This document shows positions 48,693-64,000 of a DNA stretch of 64,000 nt, piece by piece. The position numbers were made by a program, and so were the translations under genes. The number at the start of each line of letters is the position of its first letter. Position 1 is the stretch's first letter. The DNA comes from Halochromatium sp. (GTDB lineage: Bacteria > Pseudomonadota > Gammaproteobacteria > Chromatiales > Chromatiaceae): NCBI GenBank assembly GCA_010912705.1, contig POWB01000011.1, positions 62,001-126,000 of the forward strand, read 5' to 3'. The notes below the pieces were generated by a model. That model made no database searches. It saw nothing but the letters and a program-made list of their open reading frames with translations, and was not told the origin of the DNA.

Positions 48693-48806
48693 TCTGCGCC
48701 TCGGAATCGGCAGTTCACTGCTTAGCGCTGGCTTCCCAGGCATGCGCAGGCCCGTTGCAGCGCCTCGGCGCCGAGGTTGCCGGCAACGCCTTTGAGCTTG
48801 TGGATC
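48693..48806 (-). pseudogene. Fragment of hybrid-kinase HPT domain
   Basis: These bases nearly equal 55655-55760 and resemble the HPT coding region of the full kinase at 50760-50860. They lead directly into mini-gvpJ copy 2, as in the right-hand copy. Confidence 0.7.
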
Positions 48807-48830
48807 AGACGGCGTTCTTTTTCGTCAGCT

Positions 48831-48983
48831 TCACTCTGACGACGCTGGAGGCTCGAGCTTTGCCTCTAGCCGAGCGAGCCGTTCTTCTAGCCCCGGGGTG
48901 TTCAGCTGTGGGTCACGCGCCTTGGTGTCGGCGACGGTTGTGCTGTCGGTTGCATGGGTCAGATTGCGTTGATTGGTGGCCAT
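48831..48983 (-). pseudogene. Mini-gvpJ copy 2 (core domain deleted)
   Basis: The 50-codon frame (ATG at 48981-48983) matches GvpJ residues 1-19 followed directly by residues 75-105. The internal 165 bases are missing in frame at exactly the same point as in copy 1. A short shared gtcg at both ends of the deleted part suggests slippage or microhomology deletion. Confidence 0.75.
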
Positions 48984-48992
48984 GATGCCTCC

Positions 48993-49040
48993 TTAGAGCA
49001 GTCGGCCCAGCGGGCCGAGGTCGAGATTCAAATCCTCGTT
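48993..49040 (-). pseudogene. gvpK 3'-end fragment (second copy)
   Basis: It matches the last codons of gvpK (EDLNLDLGPLGRLL, stop), lacking the rest of the gene. It lies upstream of mini-gvpJ copy 2 as in the intact operon. Confidence 0.75.
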
Positions 49041-49080
49041 GCTGCCTGATCCGACCGCATTCCCGGTGTCGCTGAGACCT

Positions 49081-50235
49081 TCAGGCGGCCACGGTGTCGG
49101 GATGGGATGCGGCGATCTCAGCGAACCGCTCGCGACAGGCCAGGAAGGCATCGACGACGTCCGGATCGAAGTGACGACCACGGTCCTCGAGGAGGATCTG
49201 CGTTGTCTCGTCCAGCGTCAGCGGAGGCTTATAGACGCGCTTGTTGAGCAGGGCGTCGAACACGTCGGCCAGCGCCATCAGGCGGCCCGAGACCGGGATC
49301 GCCTCACCGGCCAGCCCGTTGGGATAGCCGGAGCCGTCCCATTTCTCGTGATGACTGGCGGCGATCTCGGCCGCGACCTCGAGGAAGGCGAAGGCATCCG
49401 GCACCTTGTCTGCCGCCTCGGGATCCGCTCCTGCGGCACTAGACCGCATGGCGTGTTCGATGGCCTCGGCGCCGATCCGCGCGTGGGTCTTCATGATCTC
49501 GTATTCGTGCGCATCGAGGCGACCGCGCTTGAACAGGATTGCATCGGGGATGCCGACCTTGCCAATGTCGTGCAGCGGGGCCGCTTTGATGATGCGCTCG
49601 AGCCACTGCCCGGCGAGCGCCGGGGCGAACTTGGGATGCTCGGCCAGGTGCCGGGCCAGCACCTCGACATAGGCTTGGGTGCGCATGATGTGCAGCCCGG
49701 TCTCGTTATCGCGGGCCTCGGCCAGGTTAGCCAGGGCGCGGATGCTGAGTTCCTGAATCAGGAGGTTGTCGCGCATCCGGCGAGAGACCTCGGCCTCCAG
49801 CCATTCGTTTTCATTCGTGAGGCGGTCGCGAGCCTCTTTGAGCTCCAGATGGGCCTTGACGCGGGCCCGCAGGATGACCGGATTGATGGGTTTGGTAATG
49901 TAATCCACCGCGCCAAGCGTGAGGCCAAGCTCCTCATTCTCGCTGCTGTTCATTGCAGTGATGAAGATCACCGGAATCTTGCGCAGGTCTTCATCGGCAT
50001 GCAGGCGCCGCATCACCTCGTAGCCGTCCATGCCCGGCATCATGACGTCGAGCAGGATGAGATCCGGCAAGGGTGGTCTTTCGACCATCCGCAAGGCGCG
50101 CTCTCCGGAAGTGCCGACCCGCACGTGGTAGAGCGGCTGCAGGAGCTCTCCAAGTACGGTGAGATTCTCGGGCGCATCATCGACGATCAGGATACTGTGC
50201 CGGATCGGCTCAAGGACATTAGGCCTTGTAGTCAC
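49081..50235 (-). CDS. HD-GYP response regulator (c-di-GMP phosphodiesterase)
   Basis: The 384-residue protein begins with a receiver (LIVDDAPEN, then LLDVMMPGMDGYEVM with the phospho-Asp). After a coiled-coil (ENEWLEAEVSRRM) comes an HD-GYP domain with HDIGKVGIP and HHEKWDGSGYPNGL. It should break down cyclic di-GMP when phosphorylated. The GTG at 50235 is chosen because ggaggag lies eight bases upstream; a longer ATG frame from 50334 is weaker. The full kinase gene lies upstream in the same direction, its likely partner. Confidence 0.92.
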   Translation of the reverse strand: MTTRPNVLEPIRHSILIVDDAPENLTVLGELLQPLYHVRVGTSGERALRMVERPPLPDLILLDVMMPGMDGYEVMRRLHADEDLRKIPVIFITAMNSSENEELGLTLGAVDYITKPINPVILRARVKAHLELKEARDRLTNENEWLEAEVSRRMRDNLLIQELSIRALANLAEARDNETGLHIMRTQAYVEVLARHLAEHPKFAPALAGQWLERIIKAAPLHDIGKVGIPDAILFKRGRLDAHEYEIMKTHARIGAEAIEHAMRSSAAGADPEAADKVPDAFAFLEVAAEIAASHHEKWDGSGYPNGLAGEAIPVSGRLMALADVFDALLNKRVYKPPLTLDETTQILLEDRGRHFDPDVVDAFLACRERFAEIAASHPDTVAA

Positions 50236-50404
50236 AATCAAGCTCCTCCGTTTGGGCTCATGTCGAAGAGGTCGTCCTCGCCTACCAAGAGGCAGCGCTC
50301 GAAAGCCTAACCATGGTCGACTGATTGCCTCCATAGGTGAAAATACATCTCGTCTGCTGCGACATGGCTCTCATTGTAGTACCCGCGGCGTGCCGGTGGT
50401 GAAT

Positions 50405-55237
<4,833 letters not shown>

Positions 55238-55437
55238 TGTCGGATACCGCCGAACGCAGCGTCCTGATTGCTTCTATATAGCCATTAGCCGTGATTGCCA
55301 GACTCAGATATGTCGCTAGCTTACAACTGCCGTGGATCAGGTGTCTGGATATCAGGAGCGATGGTCATAGCTGAAAATACGTCTCGTCTGCTGTGACGTG
55401 ATTCTCATTTAGTGCCCGCGGCGCGCCGGTGGTGAGC
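55238..55437. other. Kinase upstream spacer with start of the copied segment
   Basis: The first ~125 bases show no recognisable element and may contain the kinase promoter. From about 55371 the sequence copies the spacer found after the kinase stop at 50341-50404. Confidence 0.5.
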
Positions 55438-55760
55438 TCATGGCTGATCCGCCGCCTCAGCGGTCCTGATCTCGTCGAGCAGTGTCTGCGCCGTCTCGAA
55501 GTCGGAGTCCTCTAGGGCAGCTTGCAGCTGTTGAGCCTCGCGGCGCAAGCAGGCGCACTCGAGCAGCAAGCGTTCGGCCTCCAGCGCGAGCGGGCAGGGT
55601 TGCGATCACGGCGAGCACGCAGGCGAACTCGCGCTCTACGACGGCCTGCGCCTCGGGATCGGCAGTTCACTGCTTAGCGCTGGCTTCCCAGGCATGCGCA
55701 GGCCCGTTGCAGCGCCTCGGCGCCGAGGTTGCCGGCAACGCCTTTGAGCTTGTGGATCAG
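55438..55760 (-). pseudogene. Decayed copy of the hybrid-kinase 3' end
   Basis: It starts with a tca (stop) matching the kinase stop at 50405 and keeps the last ~50 codons. It then has internal losses (for example at about 55587, where about 130 bases present at 50560-50690 are missing) before the HPT piece. No intact reading frame remains. It leads directly into gvpJ. Confidence 0.75.
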
Positions 55761-55782
55761 ACGGCGTTCTTTTTCGTCAGCT

Positions 55783-56100
55783 TCACTCTGACGACGCTGG
55801 AGGCTCGAGCTTTGCCTCTAGCCGAGCGAGCCGTTCTTCTAGCCCCGGGGTGTTCAGCTGTGGGTCACGCGCCTTGGTGTCGAAGGTCGGGTTGCCACGC
55901 CACCAGTCGACACCCATCTCGACGGCGCGATCGACCGAGCAGATCAACAGCCGCACCTCGATCGTCAGCAGTTCCACCTCGACCAGTTTGACCCGGATAT
56001 CGCCCGCGATCACAACCCCCTTATCCAGCAAGCGCTCAAGCAGGTCGGCGACGGTTGTGCTGTCGGTCGCATGGGTCAGATTGCGTTGATTGGTGGCCAT
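55783..56100 (-). CDS. gvpJ: Gas vesicle protein GvpJ
   Basis: The 105-residue GvpA-like protein has the J-type core TTVADLLERLLDKGVVIAGD and KLVEVELLTIEVRLLICSV, followed by a C-terminal helix rich in charged residues (GLEERLARLEAKLE). GvpJ is a minor component needed for vesicle assembly. It is the last gene of the operon, nine bases after gvpK, and it is the intact parent of the two deleted copies at 45549 and 48831. Confidence 0.9.
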   Translation of the reverse strand: MATNQRNLTHATDSTTVADLLERLLDKGVVIAGDIRVKLVEVELLTIEVRLLICSVDRAVEMGVDWWRGNPTFDTKARDPQLNTPGLEERLARLEAKLEPPASSE

Positions 56101-56109
56101 GATGCCTCC

Positions 56110-56481
56110 TTAGAGCAGTCGGCCCAGCGGGCCGAGGTCGAGATTCAAATCCTCGTCGCGTAGGCCAAAGACCTCGCGCACGCGTGCCAGCTCATCGGCC
56201 TGACGCATCAGCGTGAGCCCCAGCCGCTCGATCTCCTCCTCAGTCAGCGAGCCAGAGTCCATCCGTGCAATCGCTTGTCGCTCCAGCAGCTCGTGCAGCA
56301 GCTTGATCAGCGTCAGCACCAATTGCGCCAAGCCATCACGCACGCGCTCGCCATCGATCTCCAGGCGCTTGCGGCCACCCACCGAGGAGGCGGCAGGCGT
56401 CTGCAGCGACCTGTCCAGCGCATCCGGCAGCACCCTCTGAGGTTGTTTAGGGCTTGCTGTCGTCGATGGATTGTCGTTCAT
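56110..56481 (-). CDS. gvpK: Gas vesicle protein GvpK
   Basis: The 123-residue protein matches GvpK by GLAQLVLTLIKLLHELLERQA, LTEEEIERLGLTLMRQ and the end DEDLNLDLGPLGRLL. GvpK is essential for vesicle formation in other bacteria, and its role may be in assembly. It overlaps the end of the gvpS-type gene by 35 bases and is followed by gvpJ after nine bases. Confidence 0.92.
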   Translation of the reverse strand: MNDNPSTTASPKQPQRVLPDALDRSLQTPAASSVGGRKRLEIDGERVRDGLAQLVLTLIKLLHELLERQAIARMDSGSLTEEEIERLGLTLMRQADELARVREVFGLRDEDLNLDLGPLGRLL

Positions 56482-56829
56482 GAGCCGCCTCTTGCTGCAA
56501 TCGCCGCCCGGTCTCGACCGAGGTGATTAACGCCTGCAGATTGATGTAAATAAGGTCGATATCGGCAACCGAGATGGTCAGATCAGCCACCACCACAGCG
56601 CCCTTGTTCAGGATACGATCCAGCGCCTCGCACAGCGAGATGTGCTGCTGCTCGGCTCTGGGCGTCCTCGCCCCGCCAGTGCCATTAACGAGATCTTGAT
56701 CTTGATCTTGATCTTGATCTTGATCTTGACCCAGCCCCTGACTGCCACCGCTCGTGGTGCCAGCAGCGATGCCGATGCTTGCACCGCTCACACCAGGCTC
56801 AGCGGATCGACCCTCGTCGCTCGGCGCGC

Positions 56830-56833
<4 letters not shown>
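56447..56833 (-). CDS. gvpS: Gas vesicle GvpA-like protein (GvpS/M type) with Gln-Asp repeat
   Basis: The 128-residue protein has the S/M-type core SLCEALDRILNKGAVVVAD and DLIYINLQALITSVE. Its N-terminal 60 residues are low complexity with a Gln-Asp run encoded by gatctt hexamers at 56692-56727. It is a predicted minor gas vesicle protein. The start overlaps the stop of the ATPase gene, and its 3' end overlaps gvpK. Confidence 0.85.
56692..56727. repeat. Six gatctt hexamers in the gvpS-type gene
   Basis: Six tandem copies of gatctt encode Gln-Asp pairs on the minus strand. Hexamer steps keep the frame, so the length of the run may vary between strains. Confidence 0.92.
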
Positions 56834-58817
<1,984 letters not shown>

Positions 58818-58821
<4 letters not shown>

Positions 58822-59237
58822 TCGCGGCCTTCCCAGTCGTCTTCGCCATCCTCGCTGTCGGCCTCGTTATCTTCCGAATCCTCATCATTCGCCTCCGAAA
58901 CCTCATTAACCGCATCCGCATCCGCATCCGCATCCGTATCATCTAGATCTTCATCATCTAGATCTTCAGCATCTAGATTTTCAGCATCCTCATCGTCCTC
59001 ATCTGGCGCTTCATCCGCCTCGAGCTCGTCGAGCCGGTCAAGCAGCGGTCCCTCGCGGCGGTCGAACTCCTCCTCATCGATCTGCTCGGTCTCGAGCATC
59101 ATGTAGAGGTCAGTAAGCTCGTTGCGAATTCGGGCCGCCTCGCCCTCCACCTCTTCGAGCGCGGCGTTATGGATCTCCTTAAATACCCAGAACAGACCGC
59201 GATAGGGGCTGAGGAGGATGTCATCAATCAGTAGCAC
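58818..59237 (-). CDS. gvpG: Gas vesicle protein GvpG with long acidic tail
   Basis: The first 70 residues match GvpG (LLSPYRGLFWVFKEIHNAA, then EVEGEAARIRNELTDLYMMLE). GvpG is normally about 80-90 residues, but here a tail of about 65 Asp/Glu/Ala/Asn residues follows. The tail is encoded largely by tandem units at about 58910-58980 (gcatcc hexamers and catctagatctt units). It overlaps the ATPase start (ATGA) and follows gvpF/L by 48 bases. Confidence 0.88.
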
Positions 59238-60119: not shown

Positions 60120-60497
60120 TCAATAGCGGATGCGTAGTCCACGGGGCTGGCCAGTTGGCTCGCCCGAGGTGGCCCGACTGCAGGTCTCCGAGCGACTGCC
60201 AGCGGGCGCGCGAGCACCCCGTTTGGTCGATCTTTGTACGCCTTCTACCCCTTCTACCCCGGCATCGACCAACAGGCCCTGCATTTCAGTCTCGATCTCA
60301 CCAAGGCGCTCATTGATGCCTTCGATCCGCCCCTGCGCCGCATCCCGCTCGAGCCCCCGACGATAACGTTCGAACTCTAGTGCACCCAATTGAAAATAAC
60401 TGGCATAGCGCCGTTGATTCTTGTTCGAGCTTCGTCCTGCAACCGTCTTGATGTCGCTTAAGGTGCGTGGTGGGCGTGTTGTCTTGATTGCCATCAT
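60120..60497 (-). CDS. Unknown conserved-position gas vesicle operon protein
   Basis: The 125-residue basic protein starts MMAIKTTRPPRTLSDIK with an N-terminal basic part and a helical segment (about 35-75, EFERYRRGLERDAAQGRIEG). The C-terminal third is Ser/Thr/Gly/Arg-rich and looks disordered. ATG codons overlap the gvpN stop, so it is coupled. I do not recognise it; it lies where small accessory gvp genes occur in other clusters. Confidence 0.65.
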   Translation of the reverse strand: MMAIKTTRPPRTLSDIKTVAGRSSNKNQRRYASYFQLGALEFERYRRGLERDAAQGRIEGINERLGEIETEMQGLLVDAGVEGVEGVQRSTKRGARAPAGSRSETCSRATSGEPTGQPRGLRIRY

Positions 60498-61540
60498 TGA
60501 CTCCTGATCAGATTTGGCTTGCCGCCCAAAGCGACGACAACGTCATCGCTCAACGCGCTACTACCGGCAGCCTCCGCGCGCGGCCCAGCCGCCACCGGCG
60601 GACAGACCTGCTTGATCACGCTGTCGACCAATTGATGAAAGATCGACTGCCCATCATGCAGAACCTTCGCGCTTTCAGTGCTGACCACGTCATAACAGAC
60701 GCCATGGAAGAAGCGATCACCAAAGCGCGCACGGCCATTGACCATGCCGAGGATCTTGCCAATCGCAATCCCCGCGCGCAGGGTCGGTCGCGTCTTGTTC
60801 TCGCCACTGCCACGCAGCTCGCGAATGATGTCAACGATATGACCAGCCTCAAACTCATCGATGCCCGCCTTGGCCTTGACGATCTCGATCTCGGTATCGC
60901 GATCCGGCGGATTCAGACGGATCGTGATCATTCGATCCGCAAGCGCATCCTGGGTCTTGTGCGTGCCGGCGTATTCTTCAGGATTAGAGGTAAAGATGGC
61001 GCGAAAATCGCTGCCGACATCCAGATAGCCCTCTCCCGCCGTGCGCAATCCCGGCAGGTTCAAGATCCCCTCCGACATCACCGAGAGCAGCACATTGTTC
61101 GCCTCTGGCCGTGAGCGGTTGAACTCATCGTAGATCAGCGTATCGCCATTGCGGCAGGCCGTCGTCAGCCGATTATCGACCCACATCTGCCGCATCTCTT
61201 CCTCGGTGCGCACCACCGAGTGGATGTAATTATCAACCACCTTGCTGCGCCGATAGCCGGCATCATTGGTGCCGATGAGATCAGAGACGCTAAACTCATC
61301 ATTACCATGGATCAGCGTCACCGGCCGCCCCCAGAGCGCGGCCAAATGGAAGGCCATGGTGGTCTTACCGGTCCCGGAAGGGCCGGCAAGATGCACTGGA
61401 TAACCGGCCCGCAGATAGACCAGCGCTCGATTCGTCACCTCCTCCACATAGGGTGTGGAGACAAAGGTCTCGCTCGCTTCGGGGACAACGAGATCGTCAT
61501 CATTCAGACCGACATCGGGTCGCAGACTTTCCAAGGTCAT
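60494..61540 (-). CDS. gvpN: Gas vesicle AAA+ ATPase GvpN
   Basis: The 348-residue MoxR-type ATPase has Walker A GPSGTGKT (53-60) and Walker B TLIYDEFNR (Asp138, Glu139). Its sensor region reads TSNPEEYAGTHKTQDALADR. GvpN enhances vesicle growth. The stop overlaps the next gene start. The last ~40 residues are an Ala/Pro-rich extension. Confidence 0.93.
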   Translation of the reverse strand: MTLESLRPDVGLNDDDLVVPEASETFVSTPYVEEVTNRALVYLRAGYPVHLAGPSGTGKTTMAFHLAALWGRPVTLIHGNDEFSVSDLIGTNDAGYRRSKVVDNYIHSVVRTEEEMRQMWVDNRLTTACRNGDTLIYDEFNRSRPEANNVLLSVMSEGILNLPGLRTAGEGYLDVGSDFRAIFTSNPEEYAGTHKTQDALADRMITIRLNPPDRDTEIEIVKAKAGIDEFEAGHIVDIIRELRGSGENKTRPTLRAGIAIGKILGMVNGRARFGDRFFHGVCYDVVSTESAKVLHDGQSIFHQLVDSVIKQVCPPVAAGPRAEAAGSSALSDDVVVALGGKPNLIRSQ

Positions 61541-61671: not shown

Positions 61672-62538
61672 TCAGTCGCCTGCTGTCGATTCTTTCGACT
61701 CCTTCGCCTTTGCGTCCTGTTGAGCACTTGGCTTCTTCGGTTTGCGTGCGGTTGCCGGAGCCTTGCTACCATTGGTCACCGACTCATTGGCCACCGGCTG
61801 GGCTTGCTCATGCGCCCCCGCCTGTTTGGTTGGTGCTGCCGATGGCGCGGTAGCCGGCTTTTTTGCCGCCGCCGAGCTCGATGCAGGCTTGGCTGAACGA
61901 CTGGCGATCTCAGAGGCCCCACCGAACAAGTGCCGCACCCCAGCAAGATCCTCAGCCACCGAGTTCTGGAACGCAGCAACCTGGCTGCTGAGATCCCGAA
62001 TGAAAGCAAGTCGCGCCTGAACATCAGCGGCAGCCTGTTCGCTGCGCTCCTGCCTGAAGCCACCAAGCAGATCAGCAACCTGAGTCGCGGTATCAGCGAC
62101 AAAGCCAGCACGCGCAAAGGCATCCTCGTTGACGGACGCCAGGTAATCGGAGCGAAAAGCGATCATCGTCTGTTTGAAATCGCCAAGCGTCCCGCGAATG
62201 TCATCGGCAATCGCCTCGACCTGGGCGCGGCGCTCTTCGGCCGCAGCCGCCGCCTGCTCGGTCCTGGCTTGCTGCAGATCCTGCATCATGTCGCGCACGC
62301 CTTGGCTCAAGGCGTTGATATCTTGTCCCAAGCCAGCGAGAAACTGCTGACGCGAGGCGCGGTCAGCCGCACTCTGGTTGGCTCGCGCCGCGGCAAAGCC
62401 GGCGAGTAGGCCTTCAACCGCCGATGCCTGGTCCGCAAGCTGCTCGGAGCGCGCCTGCTGCGCCTGCACGCGACCCTCGCGCGCGCGATCGATGTCGCCG
62501 CGCAGATGCGTCATCTCATCTAAAATCTTGCCCATCAT
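61672..62538 (-). CDS. gvpC: GvpC-like gas vesicle scaffold protein
   Basis: The 288-residue protein is rich in Ala, Gln, Arg and Glu. Its first 200 residues form degenerate ~33-residue helical repeats (F or G-F hinges then ARxEQAAAxxxRRxxV-type runs), as in GvpC, the outer scaffold that strengthens the shell. The rest is an Ala/Lys/Pro/Ser-rich tail. A gaggag site precedes an ATG-ATG start. It follows gvpA after a strong hairpin. Identification rests on composition, repeat pattern and position. Confidence 0.75.
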   Translation of the reverse strand: MMGKILDEMTHLRGDIDRAREGRVQAQQARSEQLADQASAVEGLLAGFAAARANQSAADRASRQQFLAGLGQDINALSQGVRDMMQDLQQARTEQAAAAAEERRAQVEAIADDIRGTLGDFKQTMIAFRSDYLASVNEDAFARAGFVADTATQVADLLGGFRQERSEQAAADVQARLAFIRDLSSQVAAFQNSVAEDLAGVRHLFGGASEIASRSAKPASSSAAAKKPATAPSAAPTKQAGAHEQAQPVANESVTNGSKAPATARKPKKPSAQQDAKAKESKESTAGD

Positions 62539-62567: not shown

Positions 62568-62602
62568 AAGTCCCGCTGTCGGCGGACCGACGCGCGGGAC
62601 TT
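62568..62602 (-). promoter_or_regulatory. Strong gvpA-gvpC hairpin
   Basis: The outer arms aagtcccgc and gcgggactt are perfect inverted copies, with an inner gtcgg/ccgac stem around a four-base loop. In transcript sense it is followed by a T-rich stretch (ttgttctt). It probably limits read-through from gvpA to downstream genes or protects gvpA mRNA. Confidence 0.7.
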
Positions 62603-62651
62603 CCTCAGAGGCTCATCAACCGGGTCAACTCACCCCGAGGCTGCCATGATG

Positions 62652-62870
62652 TCAGGCAGGTGCTGCAGCGCTGGCGGTCAGGCCAATGGCCTCAGCGTAT
62701 TTGAGGTAGGTCTCAACCGAGGCCACGACCACGCGGGCCTCGACCGAGAGCAACTCGATACCAACCAGCGAGACCTTGACCCACGCATCAACCACGATAC
62801 CTTTGTCGAGGATGCGATCAACAACTTCGGCCAGACTTGAAGAGTCAGTGGATTTTGCGATGTTAGCCAT
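62652..62870 (-). CDS. gvpA: Gas vesicle shell protein GvpA
   Basis: The 72-residue shell protein has the conserved core [20 protein letters not shown] and [20 protein letters not shown], then [10 protein letters not shown]. The ATG at 62870 follows an aggag site; a frame starting seven codons earlier lacks support. It forms the ribbed vesicle wall. It is first in the operon. Confidence 0.96.
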
Positions 62871-62940
62871 GTATCTACTCCTATGCGGCAAAGCGCATTT
62901 GACTTCAGAGACAGTGCGGTTGCGCTGTCAGTGATAAGGG

Positions 62941-62957
62941 TGCAATGCATGGGCCAA
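62941..62957 (-). promoter_or_regulatory. Predicted sigma-54 promoter of gvpA
   Basis: On the minus strand the sequence ttggcccatgcattgca has GG and GC exactly ten bases apart, with TTGCA at -12. The first half differs from consensus at two positions. It starts about 70 bases upstream of the gvpA ATG. Confidence 0.65.
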
Positions 62958-63060
62958 GATCGGAGCAGGTGACAAACAAAATGCAAGCTGTTGATTTAAA
63001 AAGACTCGGTGGTCAGGCAAGCATGATTCATAGGGACCAGCGGCTCATCTACTGATCGAA

Positions 63061-63087
63061 ATACCATGGAACAGATTCCATAGGTAT
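63061..63087. promoter_or_regulatory. Palindrome upstream of gvpA (candidate enhancer-binding site)
   Basis: ataccatggaa (63061-63071) and ttccataggtat (63076-63087) are inverted copies with one extra base and a four-base spacer. It lies about 118 bases from the -24 element, the distance usual for enhancer sites. Confidence 0.55.
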
Positions 63088-63116
63088 GGCGACCAAGCCC
63101 TAGTGATTGAGAATTA

Positions 63117-63524
63117 TTAACGGCCAGCAAGCGGCTCGCCAGCACCCTCTGCCGCTGACCGTTCAGGATCGAGCGCGTCCAGCAGTGCTTGATGCGAGAA
63201 AGGCTTGGCCACAAAGCGCTGAATGCTGCCCTCCCTCAAGGCCGCGATCACCGCCTGGTCGTCGCGGTAATAGAAGGCCGAGACCAGCACAATCCAGGCA
63301 TTTGGATTGAGCAGGCGAATGCGCTCTGCCAAGTCCAGCCCATTCATATCCTGGAGCTTGGCATCCAAAATGATGCGCTCGAAGGACTCCTGCTGAAGTC
63401 GCGACAGGGCCTCTGAGCCGCTGTTCAGACTCAGTAGCCGATAACCTGGAGGACGCAGGAGTGCTTTGATGGCCCAGCAAATATCGGGCTCGTCATCGAC
63501 CAGTAGGACGCTGACCTCGCGCAT
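63117..63524 (-). CDS. REC-only response regulator next to gvpA
   Basis: The 135-residue protein is a single receiver domain (LLVDDEPDICWAIK, phospho-Asp54 in IILDAKLQDMNG, conserved KP near 108) with no output domain. A histidine kinase gene lies 23 bases upstream in the same direction. It may act by protein contact on an enhancer-binding protein encoded elsewhere. It is located directly upstream of the gvpA promoter. Confidence 0.85.
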   Translation of the reverse strand: MREVSVLLVDDEPDICWAIKALLRPPGYRLLSLNSGSEALSRLQQESFERIILDAKLQDMNGLDLAERIRLLNPNAWIVLVSAFYYRDDQAVIAALREGSIQRFVAKPFSHQALLDALDPERSAAEGAGEPLAGR

Positions 63525-63547
63525 TGGTCAAGCCGCTGTGACCCTTA

Positions 63548-64000
63548 TCACAGGATCGGCAGCTGAACACGGAAGGTACTTCCCTCACCCACTCGACTGG
63601 TCACGCTGATCGAGCCGAGATGGCGCTGGATGATGGAATAGCAGATCGACAGCCCGAGTCCGGTGCCGTTTGGCGTCTGTCGACTGGTATGGAAAGGGTC
63701 GAAGATCTTCTGTAGCTCGCTGCTCGGAATGCCGACACCGGTGTCAGTCACATCAACCAGGGCCAGGTTCTGCACCTGACGCAGATCAACCCGCAGCTCG
63801 CCGCCATCCGGCATGGCGTTAATGGCATTCAAGAGCAGATTCAAGAACACCTGCTGCAGGAGATTCGGGATCGCCCGCAGCTGCAGATGAGGAACCTCGA
63901 GGCTCAATGTCAAACTGATCTGCTGGACCTTGACCTGATTGGTCACTAATTCGGCCGTATCCTGCAGCACAGCACATAAATCGGTTTCCTGCATCTCGTC
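63548..64000 (-). CDS. Histidine kinase, C-terminal part (runs off right edge)
   Basis: The visible 150 residues are the HATPase_c domain of an NtrB-like kinase: N-box [15 protein letters not shown]1 [15 protein letters not shown]-box [10 protein letters not shown] and G2 [16 protein letters not shown]. The start lies beyond the window. With the REC-only gene it may form a two-component system controlling gas vesicles. Confidence 0.85.

Follow-up and report, generated by a model that had tools for sequence, protein, structure and literature searches.

How is gvpA, the gene for the main gas vesicle protein, switched on in a purple sulfur bacterium? We addressed this question at the gas vesicle (gvp) locus in a stretch of 64,000 nucleotides (nt) from Halochromatium sp. 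(assembly GCA_010912705.1, contig POWB01000011.1), hereafter called the window. Upstream of gvpA lie a -24/-12 sequence of the sigma-54 type and, further upstream, a palindrome. The answer that we consider very probable, from comparison of these sequences among relatives, is a switch in which GvrA, an activator of the NtrC type whose gene lies in the gvp locus, would bind the palindrome and activate sigma-54-dependent transcription of gvpA. The source assembly has 4.19 Mb in 43 contigs and is 89.8% complete. Working labels are L for locus stretches, G for genomes, and f and g for families and genera; L012 extends the locus past the window.

Sigma-54/GvrA control of gvpA is already known in Serratia sp. 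ATCC 39006, in which, according to the available portions of two reports, gvrA, gvrB, gvrC, and rpoN are required for gvpA1 expression and gvp expression is raised by microaerophilic conditions (PMC4982088, PMC11778176). Several gvpA genes and homologues of GvrA and GvrC have been reported from the purple sulfur bacterium Thiodictyon syntrophicum Cad16 (PMC5944118); the available portion of that account names neither a promoter nor an operator. A previous sequence-only reading of the window held that sigma-54 control of gvp genes was not established for purple sulfur bacteria. Given the Serratia precedent and the homologues named in T. syntrophicum, that was an overstatement.

Promoter and palindrome upstream of gvpA

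The regulatory features of the window are as follows.

62941-62957, minus strand: predicted sigma-54 -24/-12 promoter, TTGGCCCATGCATTGCA
63061-63087, no strand: palindrome, probable GvrA operator, ATACCATGGAACAGATTCCATAGGTAT
63086-63101, minus strand: weak second copy of the operator, 20 bp further upstream
62984-62996, minus strand: sequence like a site for integration host factor (IHF), AATCAACAGCTTG, between operator and promoter

In the promoter, the GG at 62954-62955 and the GC at 62942-62943 are separated by a spacer of ten bases, placed and spaced exactly as the sequence-only reading had said. Transcription of gvpA would be expected to start near 62931, about 12 bases past the GC. The 64-kb window contains 8 matches to TGGCNYN6TGCW against 4.08 expected, and 5/100 shuffles had at least 8 matches. 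This does not amount to enrichment, so the promoter match alone proves nothing; both elements rise above chance because they are conserved in relatives.

The same reading had described a 27-base palindrome about 118 bases upstream. Its position was right (the core centre is 118 bases from the promoter GG), and the core, ATGGAA-N4-TTCCAT at 63066-63081, is perfect. Symmetry over all 27 bases was slightly generous, since the outer arms ATACC and GGTAT do not pair unless shifted by one base. We found the exact core once in the window and once in the 4.19-Mb assembly, and a search of the assembly for the 27-mer with up to 3 mismatches likewise gave one copy. The core is presumably unlike the sites of NtrC or NifA.

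Conservation among the Chromatiaceae

The gvpA gene was found in 22/210 Chromatiaceae genomes. We compared 47 upstream regions, taking only gvpA matches of at least 75% identity that aligned from residue 1. Of the 12 palindrome bases, 10 or more were present in 38/47 regions (dinucleotide shuffles, 0.77), and all 12 in 26/47 (shuffles, 0.0). Among the 44 regions from gvr-bearing genomes, the exact -24/-12 pattern was present in 40 and an exact ATGGAA-N4/5-TTCCAT in 27; the 44 include L054_1750 and L054_1329, the second and third of a set of tandem gvpA copies. In the three regions from genomes without gvr, the exact promoter and the exact palindrome were each found in 0/3. Neither exact element was present at 10 gvpA loci without gvr neighbours. 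The sequence-only reading had proposed a sigma-54 promoter and, upstream of it, a site for an activator, and had asked for conservation of both elements in related gvpA regions. That comparison bears the proposal out, and the genome has both rpoN (PF04552, E = 3.4e-67) and, in the locus itself, a gene for an NtrC-type activator, all of which point to sigma-54 control.

Homologues of GvrB with at least 47% identity were encoded in 20/29 gvp genomes, two more reaching 32% only. The exact promoter stands before a gvpA copy in every one of these 20 genomes (20/20). In eight of the other nine, the gvpA tested had neither exact element; the sequence of the ninth, G846, is cut 8 bases before gvpA. 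Because the gvp genomes are related, this association of gvr genes and promoter does not represent independent events.

We defined a module as a promoter score of at least 20 together with at least 9/12 palindrome bases. The module is kept at 22 gvpA copies that have no same-strand upstream gvr gene in the sequence examined, which exceeded 10 kb for 14 of them. It is also present at the gvpA of the T. syntrophicum plasmid pTs485. At L054 (1129-2052), three tandem gvpA copies share one promoter, and similar arrays were seen in several genomes of the order of G345.

Tests in other lineages

In the order of G345, gvpA was found in 31/301 genomes, and we tested 28 regions from 24 of these 31, chosen independently of the motif. 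The 28 leave out six genomes, L256 (too short), the short-upstream loci L238, L239, and L261, and later tandem gvpA copies; the weak match in G888 was not tested. L238 and L239, outside these counts, had no site in the 146 nt upstream. Among the 14 regions of families f137 and f259, 12 had the exact palindrome and 7 the exact promoter, the other seven having TTGT at -12. In the 14 regions of family f168 the exact promoter was found in 10, and 8/9 f168 genomes searched encode GvrA with 46-50% identity. In f168 regions (L243-L255) a tandem palindrome of the TAGGT type takes the place of this palindrome; in the seven regions inspected it lies about 200 bases before the promoter, e.g., TAGGGTGTTAATTACCTA followed by TAGGTAATTAACACCCTA; no shuffle control was made for it.

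Plasmids of the methanotrophs Methylocella and Methylosinus have gvrA/B/C-like genes upstream of gvpA and provided an independent test, in which the prediction of the promoter held (one exact match, one near match) and that of the palindrome failed. In Methylocella tundrae (L204, 13647-15042) the GvrA-like activator is annotated in two pieces, with the helix-turn-helix (HTH) part as a separate gene. The plasmid clusters of Spartinivicinus and Octadecabacter, with no gvr genes in the region shown, had neither element.

Genome-wide scan

We scanned 84,980 species genomes for the palindrome and promoter 100-130 bases apart and obtained 68 stretches. In 29 of these, gvpA lies within 1.5 kb downstream on the same strand; by record label they come from about seven phyla. 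Because the scan requires the motif, it reveals spread and not frequency. Ten of the 29 are non-Chromatiaceae by record label: two Phycisphaerales, a Syntrophaceae, another Thermodesulfobacteriota, a Nitrospinia, an Omnitrophota, a Poribacteria, a Verrucomicrobia, an unclassified bacterium, and a metagenome-assembled genome (MAG) labelled Bordetella, a doubtful label. Homologues of gvr genes were found in 8 of these ten stretches, and none in the sequence examined of L121 and L173.

We also inspected 40 stretches (39 without a gvpA match plus L134, in which gvpA is cut by the contig end). The matches in 29 of them lie inside a mechanically called open reading frame and look like chance. L110 is a further gvpA locus, cut by the end of its stretch. 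In L156 (3178-7289), from a deltaproteobacterial MAG, a gene for a GvrA-like activator (38% identity) ends immediately ahead of the same palindrome and a -24/-12 site, after which come cheW and a gene for a methyl-accepting chemotaxis protein. This arrangement outside a gvp cluster ties the palindrome to the GvrA type of activator. L124, L127, L138, L169, and L174 were inspected without assignment; the next gene in L138 had no Pfam match. On the minus strand of L124, from a Desulfobacterales MAG, a tandem ATGGAA..TTCCAT and a -24/-12 site precede a kinase-like gene (about 3260 on the reverse complement).

Second copy of the probable operator and IHF-like site

We examined the surroundings of the palindrome in 32 representatives, picked for the highest palindrome score from 54 modules among 59 regions; 9/32 came from the motif scan. 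Base counts in this set therefore lean toward the consensus; the offset of a second site was not a criterion of selection. Of 106 offsets tested for a second palindrome, -20 had the highest mean score (6.12; mean of the offsets, 2.88; standard deviation, 0.62). At least 8/12 bases were present 20-22 bp to either side of the palindrome in 20/32 representatives; the 17 control windows gave 0 to 4. The copy in the window is weak, with 7/12 bases. Offsets +14 and -14 also scored high (z = 3.4 and 2.3), which we read as self-overlap of the half-sites.

Distances between operator and promoter in the 32 representatives clustered at 114-119, 128-131, and 135-141 bases, with two at 271 and two at 106-109. 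Related sequences dominate the set, and we make no claim of helical phasing.

Classical sigma-54 promoters of the nif and glnA type consist of a -24/-12 element with palindromic activator sites about 100-130 bp upstream and an IHF site between. The gvpA regions are alike in their -24/-12 element, in their upstream palindromic sites, and, in some lineages, in an IHF-like site between the two. The site in the window fits the IHF consensus WATCAANNNNTTR. A full match to this consensus between operator and promoter was present in 4/32 representatives, compared with 0.22 in shuffles (largest, 2), and each of the four members of the genus of the window has one at about -40. The genome has four genes of the HU/IHF family, assigned at the level of the family.

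A probable GvrA-dependent switch and its alternatives

The promoter, the tandem operator, the NtrC-type activator linked to gvp, and the Serratia genetics together point to sigma-54 transcription activated by GvrA with DNA looping. The sequences, their conservation, their spacing, and their co-occurrence with gvr genes are observed; from these we infer GvrA as the binder, its phosphorylation, the loop, and the signal. Sigma-54 RNA polymerase would transcribe gvpA from 62941-62957 and wait there for GvrA. GvrA, encoded by the head gene of the upstream gvr operon, would be phosphorylated; its kinase would most likely be GvrB, which has a PAS domain, and GvrC would act as partner receiver. Dimers of GvrA would bind the palindrome, and usually also the second one about 20 bp away, assemble an ATPase ring, loop out the approximately 118 bp, and open the promoter; an IHF bend may aid looping in some lineages.

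As for the signal, the sequence-only reading had suggested nitrogen or energy. A particular link to nitrogen is not borne out: the gene of the likely activator belongs to the gvp locus, and the protein scored 433.6 bits against the NCBIfam ntrC model TIGR01818, below the cut-off of 558.6, and Serratia, in the available reports, responds to microaerophilic conditions. An energy or oxygen signal is possible.

Several results weigh against this GvrA-dependent switch. One gvpA copy of a gvr-bearing genome, L081, lacks the module, and the palindromes of L048, L050, and L051 reach 9/12 bases at best, no better than shuffles. A looser promoter score separates less cleanly, since L091 and L197, which have no gvr, reach 20.5 and 20.0. 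In genus g536 the distance from operator to promoter is 229-267 bases, and 7/11 regions have TTGT at -12. Sigma-54 activators usually carry the loop GAFTGA; that literal motif was not found in the GvrA of the window, which reads GAFTSA, as do three members of its genus. The palindrome was found in 0/14 f168 regions (one has 11/12 bases) and is absent from both methanotroph plasmids. Finally, the palindrome can fold as an RNA hairpin (71 nt, -23.2 kcal/mol, z = -2.66, 2/200 shuffles as good).

Such clusters in f168 and the methanotrophs, with gvr genes and promoter but no palindrome, would fit a real sigma-54 promoter whose palindrome is bound by a regulator other than GvrA, either a repressor or a second activator. 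That gvp genes can have other regulators is illustrated by gvpN of Cereibacter sphaeroides, which the available portion of one report places under CtrA control (PMC11999139). We nevertheless think it unlikely that another regulator binds here, for the tandem sites about 20 bp apart stand at enhancer distance, the same palindrome accompanies a GvrA-like activator in L156, and the different tandem element in f168, seen without shuffle control, fits a changed operator. Much less probable is that the gvrC transcript ends in the palindrome, whose 3'-terminal hairpin would serve as a terminator or processing site. The palindrome does lie 30 bases past the gvrC stop; however, a search of 62600-63600 for terminator-like sites (a GC-rich stem plus a T run) found none, and the module is kept at the 22 gvpA copies described above, which have no upstream gvr gene in the sequence examined. 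On these grounds we rejected the terminator reading. The half-site letters, moreover, are conserved beyond what pairing alone requires, in representatives whose choice by palindrome score biases them that way. As for the -24/-12 match being fortuitous and gvpA having an ordinary promoter, the absence of enrichment in the window would agree with it. Conservation over genera, another order, and other phyla makes this scarcely credible, as does the count of 0 sigma-70-like sites in 62600-63600 (shuffles, 0.5).

A GvrA operator was not found in the literature searched, which was mostly open access, and neither "palindrom" nor "upstream activating" occurs in the main text of PMC4982088, to which that check was confined. 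As far as that literature shows, the new elements are the probable GvrA operator, often as two palindromes about 20 bp apart; the putative IHF loop site in some lineages; the dispersed gvpA copies that appear to keep the module; and the lineages (family f168 and the methanotrophs) in which the predicted promoter is kept and the palindrome is not. On balance, we favour the view that the tandem palindrome serves as the operator for GvrA and is the hallmark of a gas vesicle sigma-54 regulon that spread with the gvr genes over about seven phyla, that several dispersed gvpA copies in Thiodictyon and Lamprocystis are driven by a single GvrA system, and that the operator was rewired while the promoter was kept in f168 and the methanotrophs. 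A result from one enterobacterium would then become a testable rule, that gvr-bearing gas vesicle clusters are switched by sigma-54, in many lineages via one operator. The operator offers a sequence for footprinting, mutation, and gas vesicle reporters, and points to more targets, namely the dispersed gvpA copies and the chemotaxis gene set in L156. The f168 and methanotroph clusters are an apparent case of an activator site that changed between lineages with the promoter unchanged.

Genes of the locus

62652-62870, minus strand: gvpA, first gene of the operon (NCBIfam PRK09371 GvpA, above cut-off)
61672-62538, minus strand: coiled-coil-like gene that follows gvpA where gvpC would stand, a role suggested by position (no Pfam or NCBIfam match)
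60494-61540, minus strand: gvpN (TIGR02640, above cut-off)
63117-63524, minus strand: gvrC-like lone receiver domain (PF00072), in the position known from Serratia
63548-64000, minus strand, cut by the window end (whole gene, L012 2549-4051): gvrB-like PAS histidine kinase (PAS, HisKA, HATPase_c)
L012 8373-9851, further upstream: gvrA, NtrC type, 492 amino acids (PF00072, PF00158, and PF02954; receiver, sigma-54 AAA+, and Fis-type HTH)

Toward gvpA the order is gvrA-gvpH-gvpZ (CDC48-like)-gvpF-gvpF (two gvpF/L genes)-gvrB-gvrC, palindrome, gvpA. The available portions of the Serratia 39006 reports give the same order, gvrA through gvrC, and a sigma-54 consensus upstream of gvpA in the gvpA1-gvpY operon, with an NtrC-type activator. 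Here gvpA comes directly after the gvr genes, whereas in Serratia these form a second operon after the gvp genes. Serratia also has quorum-sensing repression by SmaR.

The loop of GvrA varies: GAFTSA in the genus of the window and G1043, GAYTGA in L054 and L057, GSYTGA in most genomes examined of the order of G345, and GSFTGA in L136 and G1167; other GvrA proteins have the literal GAFTGA. The helix residues DYKT are common to the GvrA proteins found beside the operator, in favour of GvrA as the binder. Co-variation of this recognition helix with the operator was considered and rejected, DYKT being constant and the neighbouring residues varying without a clean link.

At the end of the gvp cluster (48694-56159), direct repeats of 237 nt (100%), 175 nt (96%), and 116 nt (98%) flank two genes, one for a hybrid histidine kinase of 1,610 amino acids (50405-55237) and one for a response regulator with an HD domain (49081-50334). 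The arrangement looks like the insertion or duplication of a signalling cassette. Proteins encoded at 56447-59237 in the cluster contain simple-repeat runs (DQDQDQ, TETETE, DADADA), which are possible slippage sites.
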